From: a virus
Length of the DNA stretch: 35,101 bases
Direction: 5' to 3' (one strand)
Virus record (IMG/VR): IMGVR_UViG_3300029309_000134
Coordinates: 1 to 35,101 of that record
Position numbers and translations under genes: made by a program. Each line of letters opens with the position of its first letter. Position 1 is the stretch's first letter. The notes below the pieces were generated by a model. That model saw nothing but the letters and a program-made list of their open reading frames with translations, searched no databases and was not told where the DNA came from. Shown one piece after another: positions 11,416 to 19,010 of the stretch.

Positions 11416-11838
11416 CTAGTTTATCTCCAGGTTCCCATTCGCCCAGGACAAAGTTACCTGGCCATTATTCTCAGCTGCTTTATCTTCAGCTTTATCCCTA
11501 ACGCCTAACGGCTGCATCTGCCTAATATGTTTATCCATATGATCTGCTTCTAATCGTCTACGCTGCACTTCAGCCATTGCTAGCTTTGGATCATCTGGCA
11601 ATGCCATCTTAACCAAGTCTAGTATCTGATCCCTCATAACCTCACACTGCAACGCTCTAGCTTTACGATACATTGTATGAGCATCATCATTCTCTTGCAC
11701 CCATCTCAGTACAGTTCTCCAGCTTGGTAAGCTCTTTGTGTTATTACATATCCTGGTCAAGCTTTCACCCTCAGCAATACGCTCACAAATAGTTTCCATC
11801 TGTGGTTTTGTAACTCTTATTTTGTAAACTTTAGCCAT
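11416..11838 (-). CDS. terS: Terminase small subunit (140 aa)
   Basis: A 140-aa protein with an N-terminal helix-turn-helix DNA-recognition domain (about 8-50, METICERIAEGESLTRIC...SWRTVLRWVQ), a central helical oligomerisation segment (MYRKARALQCEVMRDQILDLVKMA, then KLAMAEVQRRRLEADHMDKHIRQMQP) and a short polar tail. This matches the small terminase-like proteins that recognise the packaging site and load the large subunit. It is the first gene of the late minus-strand block and lies 14 bp downstream of a strong bidirectional terminator. Confidence 0.85.
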   Translation of the reverse strand: MAKVYKIRVTKPQMETICERIAEGESLTRICNNTKSLPSWRTVLRWVQENDDAHTMYRKARALQCEVMRDQILDLVKMALPDDPKLAMAEVQRRRLEADHMDKHIRQMQPLGVRDKAEDKAAENNGQVTLSWANGNLEIN

Positions 11839-12099: not shown

Positions 12100-12128
12100 T
12101 TGACTTCTAACGTCAATAGGCCCATATT
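12100..12128 (+). promoter_or_regulatory. Rightward promoter with overlapping operator TTGACTTCTAACGTCAA
   Basis: TTGACT (12100-12105), a 17-bp spacer and CATATT (12123-12128) form a sigma70-type promoter 19 bp before the 76-aa gene, whose ribosome binding site GGAGG is at 12135-12139. The -35 box is the left arm of the inverted repeat TTGAC-N7-GTCAA (12100-12116). Twelve bases of it (TTCTAACGTCAA) recur exactly at 15422-15433, and a near copy overlaps the integrase promoter. Confidence 0.65.
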
Positions 12129-12146: not shown

Positions 12147-12377
12147 ATGAACAACTGGATAATTGCTGAGAAATTTGCTGGCAAGCCATACTGGTACAAA
12201 CACAAGTTTGCGCCAGTTTGGATCCTTAAAAACTTTGGCAACAGACCTCTTTGGCCTTACGAGGTCTACAAAACAACTGAGTGCGGCGAGTACAGAAAAG
12301 CTACTGGCCACACATTCTCTAAGCTTGATCTTGCCAAAGATCATGCTGAAACAATAATCAACATGGAGAGTGCATGA
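12147..12377 (+). CDS. Hypothetical small protein, first gene of the DpdA-like operon (76 aa)
   Basis: A 76-aa protein rich in aromatic and basic residues (WIIAEKFAGKPYWYKHKFAPVW), with TGHTFSKLDLAKDHAETIINM at the C-terminal end. I do not recognise it. A strong ribosome binding site (GGAGG, 7 bases before ATG) and ATGA overlap with the transglycosylase-like gene make it a real, translationally coupled gene, possibly a partner of that protein. Confidence 0.75.
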   Translation: MNNWIIAEKFAGKPYWYKHKFAPVWILKNFGNRPLWPYEVYKTTECGEYRKATGHTFSKLDLAKDHAETIINMESA

Positions 12378-13123
12378 AAAGGTTAGTTCACGGAACGCCT
12401 ATCACGCCAAAAAGATTGTTACCGCAGCTCAAAGGCAAAAGCTTTTGTGTCAGTTATATGCACCCAGAGCAACTTGCTGAGTGCATTGAGCTTGTTGGTG
12501 ATAACGAAATATTGATCCTGGACAACGGAGCTTTCACCGCCTGGAAAAAAGGCATCACTCTTGATGCTGCCTGGTGGGATGGCTTCTATGCCTGGGCCAA
12601 TGCTGCAATGGACAAGTGTCCTAATGCAGTGTGTGTGATTCCAGACGTTATCAACGGCGATGAAGCTAGCAACTTGCAGCTGATCGCTGATGCCATCAAA
12701 GGTGGCAAAATCAAGTACCCAGAAAGAGCAATGGCAATATGGCACATGAATGAAAGTTTTGACCAGCTCGAAAAGTTATTTAGGATTTTCAACTTCGTAG
12801 GCTTCGGCAGCTGCGGCGAGGTTGACATTGCCAAAAACAAACCAGGCAGCGCTTACATTGCCAAGATCAAGCAAGCCTGGGCGTTCATGGATTACTGGCA
12901 AAAAAAGTATGGCATCGACAAGCCTTGGATCCACATGATGAGAGGTTTGGGAGTGCTTCACAAAATTGGTTTTGACAGTGCAGATAGCTGCAATATTGCC
13001 ATGAATCACTGGAGAAACAAAAACAATGTTGTTCACCATGTAGCTCAGTTTGCAGACAGACTTGAAGCCAAGGTCAACAACCAGGAATTGAACGAGCTTC
13101 CCTTGTTCAATGTAGCAGCTTAG
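12374..13123 (+). CDS. tRNA-guanine transglycosylase / DpdA-like protein (249 aa)
   Basis: The order of motifs follows the TGT superfamily TIM barrel, which swaps guanine for a 7-deazaguanine. LDNGAF (D50) resembles the first TGT catalytic/substrate Asp region (DSGGF in bacterial TGT). PDVI (D91) and WHM (H114) follow; GFGS (133-136) resembles the glycine-rich substrate loop; IHMMRGLG (186-193) and FDSADS (D201, D204) resemble the second Asp region holding the nucleophile. At 249 aa it is much shorter than bacterial TGT and lacks the C-terminal four-Cys/His zinc site. This fits phage DpdA-type proteins that modify DNA better than tRNA enzymes. No precursor synthesis genes (folE, queD, queE, queC) are in the genome, so preQ0 or preQ1 would come from the host. 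The substrate is not decided by sequence alone. Confidence 0.7.
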   Translation: MKRLVHGTPITPKRLLPQLKGKSFCVSYMHPEQLAECIELVGDNEILILDNGAFTAWKKGITLDAAWWDGFYAWANAAMDKCPNAVCVIPDVINGDEASNLQLIADAIKGGKIKYPERAMAIWHMNESFDQLEKLFRIFNFVGFGSCGEVDIAKNKPGSAYIAKIKQAWAFMDYWQKKYGIDKPWIHMMRGLGVLHKIGFDSADSCNIAMNHWRNKNNVVHHVAQFADRLEAKVNNQELNELPLFNVAA

Positions 13124-13135
13124 AAAGGAGAAACT

Positions 13136-13636
13136 ATGAGCGCTTTTATCGTAAATCCAAAACACATTGCTGCCCTTGCAGCATTTACTATTCAACCCAG
13201 CAATTACTTTTATTGCTACAATATGCACACAAAAAAAGTACTGTTTGACTTCAGCTCTCCTGGCGTAGCAAACATAAAAAAGTTTCACCATGTAAAATGG
13301 ATAGCCAAGATGCTTGCTGAAGCTAACGTCAAGAGTGTCTACGAGCTTGAGAAAAGAGCTACTAAAGAAGTTTACAGTGCCAAGTATCTTGAGGATCTAA
13401 TGTTGTTTCCAGCTGATTGCATCAAAGCTCTTGAAAAGCTTGGCACTAACGGCCACAACTACTACTTGAGTGATGCTGATGTTTACAACATGGCTTGCTG
13501 CTTAAACTACCAGAGCTGCGAGGTAGAAAACTGGATGCACACTGATGCTTACTGGATCATCAAGGCGATCAAGGATCATGCAGCAAAAGGTATGGCTAGT
13601 GATGCTAAAGTTAAATGGGAATGGAAAGCTGCTTAA
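13136..13636 (+). CDS. Hypothetical phage protein (166 aa)
   Basis: A 166-aa soluble protein opening MSAFIVNPKHIAALAAFTIQ, like an uncharacterised phage/bacterial protein type with an N-terminal '(D/N)xxHIxxL' pattern and a later helical segment (MLAEANVKSVYELE, then YLEDLMLFPADCIKALEKLG). No catalytic motif is visible. GAAAGGAG lies before the ATG. It is the last gene of the operon with the transglycosylase-like gene, and its stop overlaps the stop of the convergent DUF6362-like gene (13633-13636) with no terminator between them. Confidence 0.75.
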   Translation: MSAFIVNPKHIAALAAFTIQPSNYFYCYNMHTKKVLFDFSSPGVANIKKFHHVKWIAKMLAEANVKSVYELEKRATKEVYSAKYLEDLMLFPADCIKALEKLGTNGHNYYLSDADVYNMACCLNYQSCEVENWMHTDAYWIIKAIKDHAAKGMASDAKVKWEWKAA

Positions 13637-14064
13637 AGCTTGTAATATAATCTAACCAGGGCATCCTGGTATCTACGCTTAACAATCCTGGGATCATTCA
13701 ATCCCAGGATTTTTGCTATCTTGGTCCATTTTGCGCCACGATCTCTAAATGCAGCTGAATGAGCTACGGCCCAGATTAGTCTGCGATCAGCTTCATCCAT
13801 AGACAATCCCATTGTAATTGCTTTATCTAACCTGGTTATCTGTTCTGGTGATGCTTTCAGCCTGGGAGATTCAAAAGAGTTATATCCATAAGCAGACCAT
13901 TCTTTGACATAATCTGGCCAATGCACCATCTTCTGCTTTCTGATTACACCAGGCAGCTTTCTTTCAGTTTCAGCTGCTTCCAGGAATAAATCATGTAGCT
14001 GATCTATTGCCAGTTTGTCTTGTGATCTTAATGCTCTTTCACTCTTTACGTCTAAGCTTATCAT
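13633..14064 (-). CDS. DUF6362-like HTH protein, candidate late regulator (143 aa)
   Basis: The arrangement (AAETERKLPGVIR, HWPDYVKEWSAYGY, then a linker, ADRRLIWAVAHSAAFRDRGAKWTKIAKILGLNDPRIVKRRYQDALVRL) matches the DUF6362 pattern of small phage proteins. Their C-terminal sigma-like helix-turn-helix (about 112-137) follows an RRLIWA helix. Such genes commonly sit near terminase genes and are suspected transcription regulators. It is the last gene of the leftward operon from 15.40 kb and overlaps the 117-aa gene by 26 bp. A role in switching on the late operon is inference. Confidence 0.65.
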   Translation of the reverse strand: MISLDVKSERALRSQDKLAIDQLHDLFLEAAETERKLPGVIRKQKMVHWPDYVKEWSAYGYNSFESPRLKASPEQITRLDKAITMGLSMDEADRRLIWAVAHSAAFRDRGAKWTKIAKILGLNDPRIVKRRYQDALVRLYYKL

Positions 14065-14821: not shown

Positions 14822-15210
14822 TATCTCCCCCTCAGTTTAATTAACTCTTGTAAAAATTCTTGTACCTGGTCAACAGATCTGCAAAGCGCCCAGAAAACAC
14901 CAGCTTCCTCTAGCCTATCTCTAATTTCCCTTTGGCTTTGAGTGAGCTGGCCCTTGCGACCTTTTACCTCAATAAATATTGATAACGATACGCCGCAGTA
15001 TGTCTGATCCCCTGGCACAAATATTTCTATGTCTGGCCAGCCAGCTTTCGTTCCCATACGTTTTTGTTTTACTTTAAATGACACATGGCGATTACCCTCA
15101 TTCGGTGAGTGATGCCAAACTGATCCAGGCGGCAGCATAATATCCAACCACCTGGCTATTCGTAGGTGTACTGTATCTTCCGAATCAATTTCTACGGATG
15201 ATAAAGTCAT
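14821..15210 (-). CDS. VRR-NUC domain nuclease (129 aa)
   Basis: A stand-alone VRR-NUC (PD-(D/E)XK) nuclease. HHSPNEG (33-39), KMGTKAGWPD-like RMGTKAGWPDIEIF (51-64, catalytic D60) and FIEVKGRKGQLTQSQ (79-93, E81-x-K83 with the following QxxxQ) are the family signatures. The length is normal for phage VRR-NUC proteins, which act as structure-specific endonucleases, some on Holliday junction-like DNA. It overlaps the HTH regulator gene by 26 bp in the same operon. It probably works with the exonuclease and annealing protein coded on the other side of the control region. Confidence 0.92.
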   Translation of the reverse strand: MTLSSVEIDSEDTVHLRIARWLDIMLPPGSVWHHSPNEGNRHVSFKVKQKRMGTKAGWPDIEIFVPGDQTYCGVSLSIFIEVKGRKGQLTQSQREIRDRLEEAGVFWALCRSVDQVQEFLQELIKLRGR

Positions 15211-15397
15211 TTGGCGTAACCGCTCCCATTGTTACTTCTAAAATCAAGCTTAAATTTTTTGGATTCGGTGTCAATGCCTGGTTATGATTTTTTGGTAAAC
15301 ACCACCGCCTGGCTACTGTAGCTTCTTTAAAACCAAGTTTTTCAGCTAGTTTTTTGTAACTCAAATTATTTTCTAATCTATATTCTTCTAGTGTCAT
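15185..15397 (-). CDS. Small HTH regulator, candidate lysogeny repressor/Cro (70 aa)
   Basis: I take the ATG at 15397-15395. An upstream extension to 15490 would run through the divergent promoters and carries unlike residues. The 70-aa protein starts MTLEEYRLENNLSYKKLAEKLGFKEATVARRW, an XRE/Cro-like helix-turn-helix (about 11-35), then NPKNLSLILEVTMGAVTPNDF, the usual end of small phage Cro-like regulators. It is the first leftward gene from the control region with paired TTGACGTT sites and is the best candidate for binding them. No larger CI-type repressor with a dimerisation or cleavage domain is present in the genome. Confidence 0.8.
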   Translation of the reverse strand: MTLEEYRLENNLSYKKLAEKLGFKEATVARRWCLPKNHNQALTPNPKNLSLILEVTMGAVTPNDFIIRRN

Positions 15398-17613: not shown

Positions 17614-17946
17614 ATGGGAAACTCACCACAATTTTCAAATACAAATATGAAATTCCAGAGGGCGGTAGGCGCATCTGACGATAACCCTGGACAAAAAGTT
17701 AAGGTAAGTATCTGGCTTAACTTTGATAATGGCTGGGATGATGTAAACAAAATACCTTTTCCGCCCACACCTGAGCAGCAAAAATCTATTGAAGATATAC
17801 ATAAACAAATTAAAGATTTGGGGATGGAACTATCAGTGCAGCTGCAAACTGATAATAAAATGAATATTGCCAGGACCAGGGCATTTTGTAACGAGCTTCG
17901 TTACGAAACTAAAAATGAATCTATTAGCGGATTTGATGATCTCTAA
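17614..17946 (+). CDS. Hypothetical early protein with acidic C-terminus (110 aa)
   Basis: A 110-aa protein opening MGNSPQFSNTNMKFQRAVGAS. It has a short beta segment KVKVSIWLNFDNGW, a helix EQQKSIEDIHKQIKDLGM and a tail ending SISGFDDL. An acidic end with an aromatic residue is a feature of ssDNA-binding proteins, but no OB-fold pattern is clear. AGGAGAT precedes the ATG. It closes the recombination operon, and its stop overlaps that of the convergent integrase gene (17943-17946). Confidence 0.65.
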   Translation: MGNSPQFSNTNMKFQRAVGASDDNPGQKVKVSIWLNFDNGWDDVNKIPFPPTPEQQKSIEDIHKQIKDLGMELSVQLQTDNKMNIARTRAFCNELRYETKNESISGFDDL

Positions 17947-19010
17947 AAATTTATCTTGGCAATCTTTTGTTGCAGCTTTTGTTTTCTAGCTAAATCTTGC
18001 ATCCAATGGCCATAGACGTTTTGAGTTATCTTAATATCGCTATGGCCCATAAGATTTGAAACTGTCCAAATGTCATCACCAAAATGCTCAAGCATCTTAC
18101 TGGCATAGTAATGTCTGAGATCGTGCCACCTCAAAGTTTTATCACTTACTTTCTTAACTACCTTTTGCAGCTGCTCCAGCCAGTAGCTTCTTCCTATCAT
18201 CGTATTGTACTTAGTGCCAAACACAAAGTTTGTTTTACCTGGTCTACCTTTTTTAATGTAAAGCTCTTTCAGCTCTTTTAAAATTTTACCAGGGATAGGC
18301 ACTATTCTATTTGATGTGTTTGTTTTGACCAGGCCCACGCCATGCTTCTCGATTTCGTCATCAACAACAACCTTGAGCTTTGCGCTTCGTCTAACATTTA
18401 CTTCAGACATTTTAAAATCAATATCATCCCAGGTCAAAGCTCGTTGCTCACCAGCTCTTAGGCCAGTGCTGCAAGCAAATCTGTAAGCTAGTTTAATTGA
18501 TTCTGGTAAATGGCTATCAATCTCATGGATAAAATCTGTGGATAATTTTTCAATCTTAGGCTGCTGCTCAACGATAGGTCTTTTGAACTCAGCATCTAAC
18601 ATGGGATTTTGCGCCAGGCAGTTTCTGCTTTTGCAAAAAGATAAAAACTTATTGAAACAAGATCGCATCTCTTTGACAGTTTTAAAGCTTCGCTTACCTT
18701 TTTTACCGCTATTAAATAATGTGGGGAGAATGTAGGATTCACAATGTTCTACAGTGAGATCCCTTGGTTTGAGCTGGCCAACAGTGCAGCTGCCTACATT
18801 GATTGCCAGGATTGTATCAAAGATATTTTTGTATTTATCAAAATAATCTGGCAGCGGTTTGCCGCTTTTCATATTTTTGTATTCTCTAAAATAAAATGTT
18901 CTTAGAAAATAATTATTTTTAAGTCTTATATCCCAATCTTTCCTGGCATCTTGGCATGGGAACTCACCAAGCAATTCTTGTATTGTCCAGTTTTCTATTT
19001 GTTTTTTCAT
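17943..19010 (-). CDS. int: Tyrosine integrase (355 aa)
   Basis: A site-specific recombinase of the phage integrase family. There is an N-terminal core-binding region (about 60-130) and a C-terminal catalytic domain with R175 (STGLRAGEQRALTW), K219 (GLVKTNTSNRIVPIP), H296-x-x-R299 (WHDLRHYYAS), H323 (MGHSDIKITQ) and the nucleophile Y333 (NVYGHW). All catalytic residues are present, so the phage should integrate. The ribosome binding site AAGGAGT and a strong promoter (19032-19060) with an operator-like repeat lie just upstream. No att core or tRNA fragment was found beside it. It is the only gene here that directly shows a temperate lifestyle. Confidence 0.96.
   Translation of the reverse strand: MKKQIENWTIQELLGEFPCQDARKDWDIRLKNNYFLRTFYFREYKNMKSGKPLPDYFDKYKNIFDTILAINVGSCTVGQLKPRDLTVEHCESYILPTLFNSGKKGKRSFKTVKEMRSCFNKFLSFCKSRNCLAQNPMLDAEFKRPIVEQQPKIEKLSTDFIHEIDSHLPESIKLAYRFACSTGLRAGEQRALTWDDIDFKMSEVNVRRSAKLKVVVDDEIEKHGVGLVKTNTSNRIVPIPGKILKELKELYIKKGRPGKTNFVFGTKYNTMIGRSYWLEQLQKVVKKVSDKTLRWHDLRHYYASKMLEHFGDDIWTVSNLMGHSDIKITQNVYGHWMQDLARKQKLQQKIAKINF

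Follow-up and report, generated by a model that had tools for sequence, protein, structure and literature searches.

The window, a stretch of 35,101 nucleotides covering positions 1 to 35,101 of the IMG/VR virus record IMGVR_UViG_3300029309_000134, carries in the middle of a three-gene plus-strand operon (76, 249, and 166 aa) a gene whose product is probably a minimal, host-fed DpdA with a putative activity in exchanging DNA bases to evade restriction (Table 1). The new element is the setting, in which dpdA appears to be an optional slot cargo, driven by a dyad-bearing promoter and exchanged with ArdA; the literature searched contained no mention of the terS-DUF6362 slot and no report of DpdA in this phage group. 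Considering that ArdA takes this slot in sister phages, the dpdA-like gene is most likely one of the optional shields of this phage group against DNA-cutting defenses.

Table 1. Features of the window and of ArdA-bearing slot loci (positions without a locus name refer to the window)
Feature	Position	Strand	Evidence or remark
terminase small subunit (terS), left slot border	11416..11838	-	PF20901 1.8e-22
17-bp dyad TTGACTTCTAACGTCAA, putative repressor operator	12100..12116	+	overlaps -35; lone perfect TTGACN7GTCAA
76-aa ORF, first operon gene	12147..12377	+	4-bp overlap with dpdA start; dispensable neighbor
dpdA-like gene, 249 aa	12374..13123	+	putative base-exchange enzyme; ORF, PHROG 887, 9g DpdA profile match, predicted barrel, dN/dS
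166-aa ORF (MSAFIVNP... family), last slot gene	13136..13636	+	occurs with and without dpdA
DUF6362 protein, right slot border	13633..14064	-	PF19889 1.8e-14
small Cro/CI-type HTH protein, candidate repressor	15185..15397	-	HTH_3 E 1.2e-4, just under cutoff
integrase (temperate lifestyle)	17943..19010	-	phrog_1 8.8e-48
ArdA-type antirestriction protein, terS-DUF6362 slot, no dpdA	L268:3757-4293	-	
ArdA-type antirestriction protein, terS-DUF6362 slot, no dpdA	L276:3302-3844	-	
further ArdA-type slot loci without dpdA	L269, L273, L277, L278, L279		

Head, portal, terminase, and tail genes identified the window as a T7-like podovirus, and its integrase bears out the temperate lifestyle proposed in the first-pass annotation. 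The portal protein was 61 to 62% identical to those of phages that we take to be HTVC010P/Skadi-like pelagiphages, and relatives of terL (47 to 55%) were detected in some genomes of the class searched, namely, that of an uncultured Neomegalonema genome. Despite the pelagiphage-like portal, the GC content of the window (39%) argues against SAR11 as the host. No tRNA genes were found in the window.

Slot occupancy was surveyed in 30 loci found by terS, which are not independent, several being near-copies of one another; dpdA occupied 16 of them, ArdA 7, and both none. Likewise, none of the 246 dpdA loci had ArdA. The ArdA calls were based on PF07275 (up to 32 bits, with a cutoff of 27) and on the ArdA structure 2w82 (5.7e-5). 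The locus L222 matched the window at 92 to 99% on both flanks and lacked dpdA, which was replaced by a 73-aa gene between the 76- and 166-aa genes. In L003 and L009, the dpdA DNA was 95 to 96% identical, compared with 84.5% for terL and 73 to 76% for the DUF6362 gene, a contrast as expected of a module that may have been exchanged. In sister phages, ArdA takes up the slot behind a promoter dyad of the same type, but it is an unrelated protein, a DNA mimic that acts directly by blocking restriction enzymes, whereas DpdA modifies DNA. This exchange offers a new and independent argument, drawn from sequence only, for an antirestriction role of dpdA, and the terS-DUF6362 slot of HTVC010P-like marine podoviruses is a place to seek new counterdefense genes. 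Small proteins are also encoded beside ArdA in the slot (L268:3447-3752, L273:619-936, and L276:3838-4302, all on the minus strand).

Promoter hexamers recognized by eye precede the operon, with TTGACT as the -35 element (12100 to 12105) and CATATT as a possible -10 element (12123 to 12128). The pattern TTGAC-N7-GTCAA had a single perfect occurrence in the window, where 0.02 were expected, and it sits at this -35 element. In most marine relatives, the dyad (perfect or with one mismatch) was located upstream of the dpdA cassette, from -22 to about -800, and several marine relatives had related sites at the early promoter near an HTH gene. The first-pass annotation had placed the gene under a presumed repressor, which holds insofar as the promoter carries a repressor-type operator dyad, while the pairing with the dyad, that is, its binding by the small HTH protein, is something that we infer. 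L024, L026, L040, L041, and L063 each contained the dyad two or three times, with the copies apparently heading successive plus-strand cassettes.

The ORF and its motif series were present in the order previously described, namely, LDNGAF (D50), IPDVI (D91), WHMNE (H124), GFGS (G145), WIHMMRG (H187), and SADS (D204). Close relatives of the gene, which had a GC content of 46%, were held by 41 IMG/VR loci, and its dN/dS of 0.05 to 0.07 versus several relatives reveals strong purifying selection, indicating a working gene. The protein matched PHROG 887, "queuine tRNA-ribosyltransferase," at an E value of 2.8e-27; Pfam and NCBIfam gave nothing convincing, including no Pfam TGT match, and PDB sequence searches with the protein and with the profile found no relative. 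With tblastn, 104 phage records were retrieved at 30 to 37% identity, including MED16 and SW9, and alignment-based scans added ∼150 relatives, found in viral contigs and in the genomes of bacteria, which were mostly Proteobacteria. In hhalign comparisons, the family profile matched the phage 9g DpdA at an E value of 6.7e-10 and four 9g-type DpdA relatives at 5e-12 to 8e-10, against a background of 0.022 for the best of the remaining 9g ORFs, whereas E. coli TGT reached only 0.36, i.e., no sequence-level match. Thus, the TGT/DpdA-type assignment made earlier stands, with the sequence closest to DpdA rather than to E. coli TGT.

The match to 9g DpdA covers the barrel region and all catalytic-site positions, pairing D50 with D72, D91 with D114, H124 with H141, H187 with H196, and D204 with D215, although 9g DpdA differs in its length (317 aa), its C-terminal extension, and the full preQ0/G+ cluster around its gene. 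His196 is the residue that separates DpdA from DpdA2 (Hutinet et al., PMC6884629). Among the relatives, D50, D91, H124, H187, and R190 were invariant (84/84) and D204 was nearly so (82/84), making D50, D91, H124, H187, and D204 the putative catalytic residues of the 249-aa protein. No conserved zinc ligands were found across the alignment of the 84 relatives, so that the zinc domain is indeed absent as first reported; however, its absence is normal for phage DpdA, the 9g-type proteins likewise having no conserved zinc site, and its loss was rejected as a novelty.

The AlphaFold model, built from 84 sequences (pLDDT, 93.4; pTM, 0.90), was an eight-stranded barrel. In VIA-align, its best partner was Cap10 of type IV CBASS (Z, 15.2; root mean square deviation, 3.3; 218 residues aligned), followed by the TGTs of archaea (15.0) and bacteria (14.7) and by DpdA, the DNA preQ0 insertase (7ui4; 13.8), in line with the TGT-type barrel expected from the motifs. 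Since PdxJ, an unrelated non-TGT barrel, scored 14.1, the fold alone cannot discriminate DpdA; it fits, but it is the sequence evidence that tells DpdA apart from other barrels. In Foldseek against the PDB, generic barrels ranked first, and TGT, Cap10, and DpdA came out on top only in the second look with VIA-align. Many annotated queuine tRNA-ribosyltransferases were among the best matches to the barrel model in predicted viral structures. A control model of a 9g-type DpdA (6 sequences; pLDDT, 51) was left out of the comparison.

Given the fold in common with bacterial and archaeal TGT (Z, 14 to 15) and the label that databases attach to the family, the protein might instead be a stripped-down TGT exchanging guanine in host or phage tRNA and thereby altering translation during infection. 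We consider this rather unlikely, because the protein has neither the TGT zinc site nor a sequence-level match to the E. coli enzyme, in contrast to its strong match to 9g DpdA, because 249 aa leave little outside the barrel and no RNA-binding extensions, and because its slot swaps with ArdA.

A dpdA without a precursor pathway was presented in the first-pass annotation as a notable combination, but such singletons are already documented, having been reported for 76 phages in 2019 (PMC6884629). The DNA of MED16, a phage without preQ0 genes, contains dADG at 0.13% of G and is still cut, showing no visible resistance to any enzyme tested (PMC8306585), and phage 7-11 has dADG at 0.02% of G (PMC6884629). 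Orion, whose host is without preQ0, has no dADG, while 9g DpdA expressed alone in E. coli inserts preQ0 into plasmid DNA (PMC6884629). Considering these low levels and the continued cutting of MED16 DNA, protection by such modification is unproven. Singletons are the largest and least understood group of DpdAs, and any DNA protection by them is putative (PMC6884629, PMC8306585). The 249-aa protein resembles the singletons of PHROG 887 (MED16 gp38 and those of Salmonella phages SW9 and SEN1) in its length of ∼250 aa, sequence family, and conserved residues, and also in that the phage itself has no preQ0 pathway. It differs from them in its identity (29 to 32%; 29 to 31% to MED16 DpdA), in its deep group, in being known from sequence alone, and in the position of its gene, which lies in a slot of HTVC010P-like podoviruses that is driven from an operator.

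Some members of the family do have precursor genes at hand, since a linked 7-deazaguanine gene was observed in 37 of the 197 family loci (26 of 114 nonredundant). Of all neighbor genes in the 197 loci, the commonest was Vut_1/YhhQ (28 loci, at +1 in 19 and at -1 in 7), and from the 7-deazaguanine pathway QueE (6) and QueD (4) came next. All linked genes were on the same strand as dpdA, with 32 of 38 being immediately adjacent, and Pfam confirmed representatives of them. YhhQ is involved in preQ0 transport (PMC5372724), and its homologues have been noted in some phages with no correlation with a group (Hutinet et al., PMC6884629); in the present data, the YhhQ link is tight for the small-DpdA family. 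In agreement with the earlier claim that the phage has no preQ0 genes, no match to Vut_1/YhhQ, QueD, QueC, or FolE was found anywhere in the window.

The quick tree, on which the phylogeny rests, placed the 249-aa protein in a group of 19 rows opposite a group of 105 rows (SH-aLRT of the branch, 100), the latter holding MED16 and all members linked to YhhQ, QueE, or QueD; even the YhhQ-linked row L075, the nearest by identity to the 249-aa protein, was placed there. YhhQ, QueD, QueC, and FolE were not found in the records of the 19-row group, many of which are fragments. Since this group is split deeply from the linked members and has no linked genes, we infer the base donor of the 249-aa protein.

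Such a separation leaves room for other readings. The marine group might be a separate DpdA branch that has left preQ0-on-DNA for another base or target, e.g., a deazaguanylated protein of type IV CBASS or qatABCD, acting from a slot in which this phage group swaps counterdefense genes, which seems unlikely. The separate tree group without a linked 7-deazaguanine gene would also suit a diverged homologue in which base exchange is lost or involves another base, and which has been retained for some other role; this is quite unlikely, however, given that all putative active-site positions are kept and dN/dS is ∼0.05. Very improbable is a protein that targets a protein-bound 7-deazaguanine or antagonizes type IV CBASS (Cap9/Cap10) or qatABCD defenses, perhaps through binding the conjugated base or taking it off. 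Cap10-CdnD with the NDG modification (PMC11996544) tops the structural matches in a tie with TGT, sharing the TGT-family barrel, and the slot seems to hold counterdefense genes, but the putative catalytic residues, including the aspartates, are intact as base exchange predicts, the window has no QueC-like Cap9, the context is a phage rather than a defense system, the operon proteins have no defense-family match, and those of the nearest relatives by sequence for which there are data act on DNA.

As a host-fed DpdA, the preferred reading, the enzyme would act on double-stranded phage DNA, breaking the glycosidic bond at selected guanines and re-forming it with a 7-deazaguanine, presumably preQ0 or a derivative from the host queuosine pathway. 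By analogy with TGT chemistry, D204 would act as the nucleophile and D50 as the general acid/base, while D91, H124, G145, and H187 would line the base pocket. A dedicated promoter over which a repressor-type dyad extends suggests that dpdA may stay off in the prophage and be expressed early once infection or induction has occurred. New phage DNA would be marked in this way and host restriction enzymes possibly blunted.

The 76- and 166-aa genes had been suggested as partners of dpdA, but they turned out to be optional neighbors and were rejected as obligate ones. The 76-aa gene is present in few relatives, and L222 carries a 99% identical copy of it without dpdA. The 166-aa ORF begins 12 bp downstream of dpdA; its family lacks dpdA in 10 of 30 loci and thus belongs to the slot rather than to dpdA. 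Against PADLOC and defense families, the three operon proteins had no match. The 166-aa family, with MSAFIVNPEHIAAL...CLEYQSCE (13136 to 13636 and relatives), was frequent in the slot with or without dpdA. Another recurrent cargo of ∼160 aa, with GPCCGVLACAIA ... HAQIVYN, occurred in 16 loci (e.g., L252:989-1468, minus strand, and L023:53-535, plus strand); it had no Pfam or PHROG match, possibly shows a papain-like cysteine protease pattern, and is a candidate counterdefense protein.
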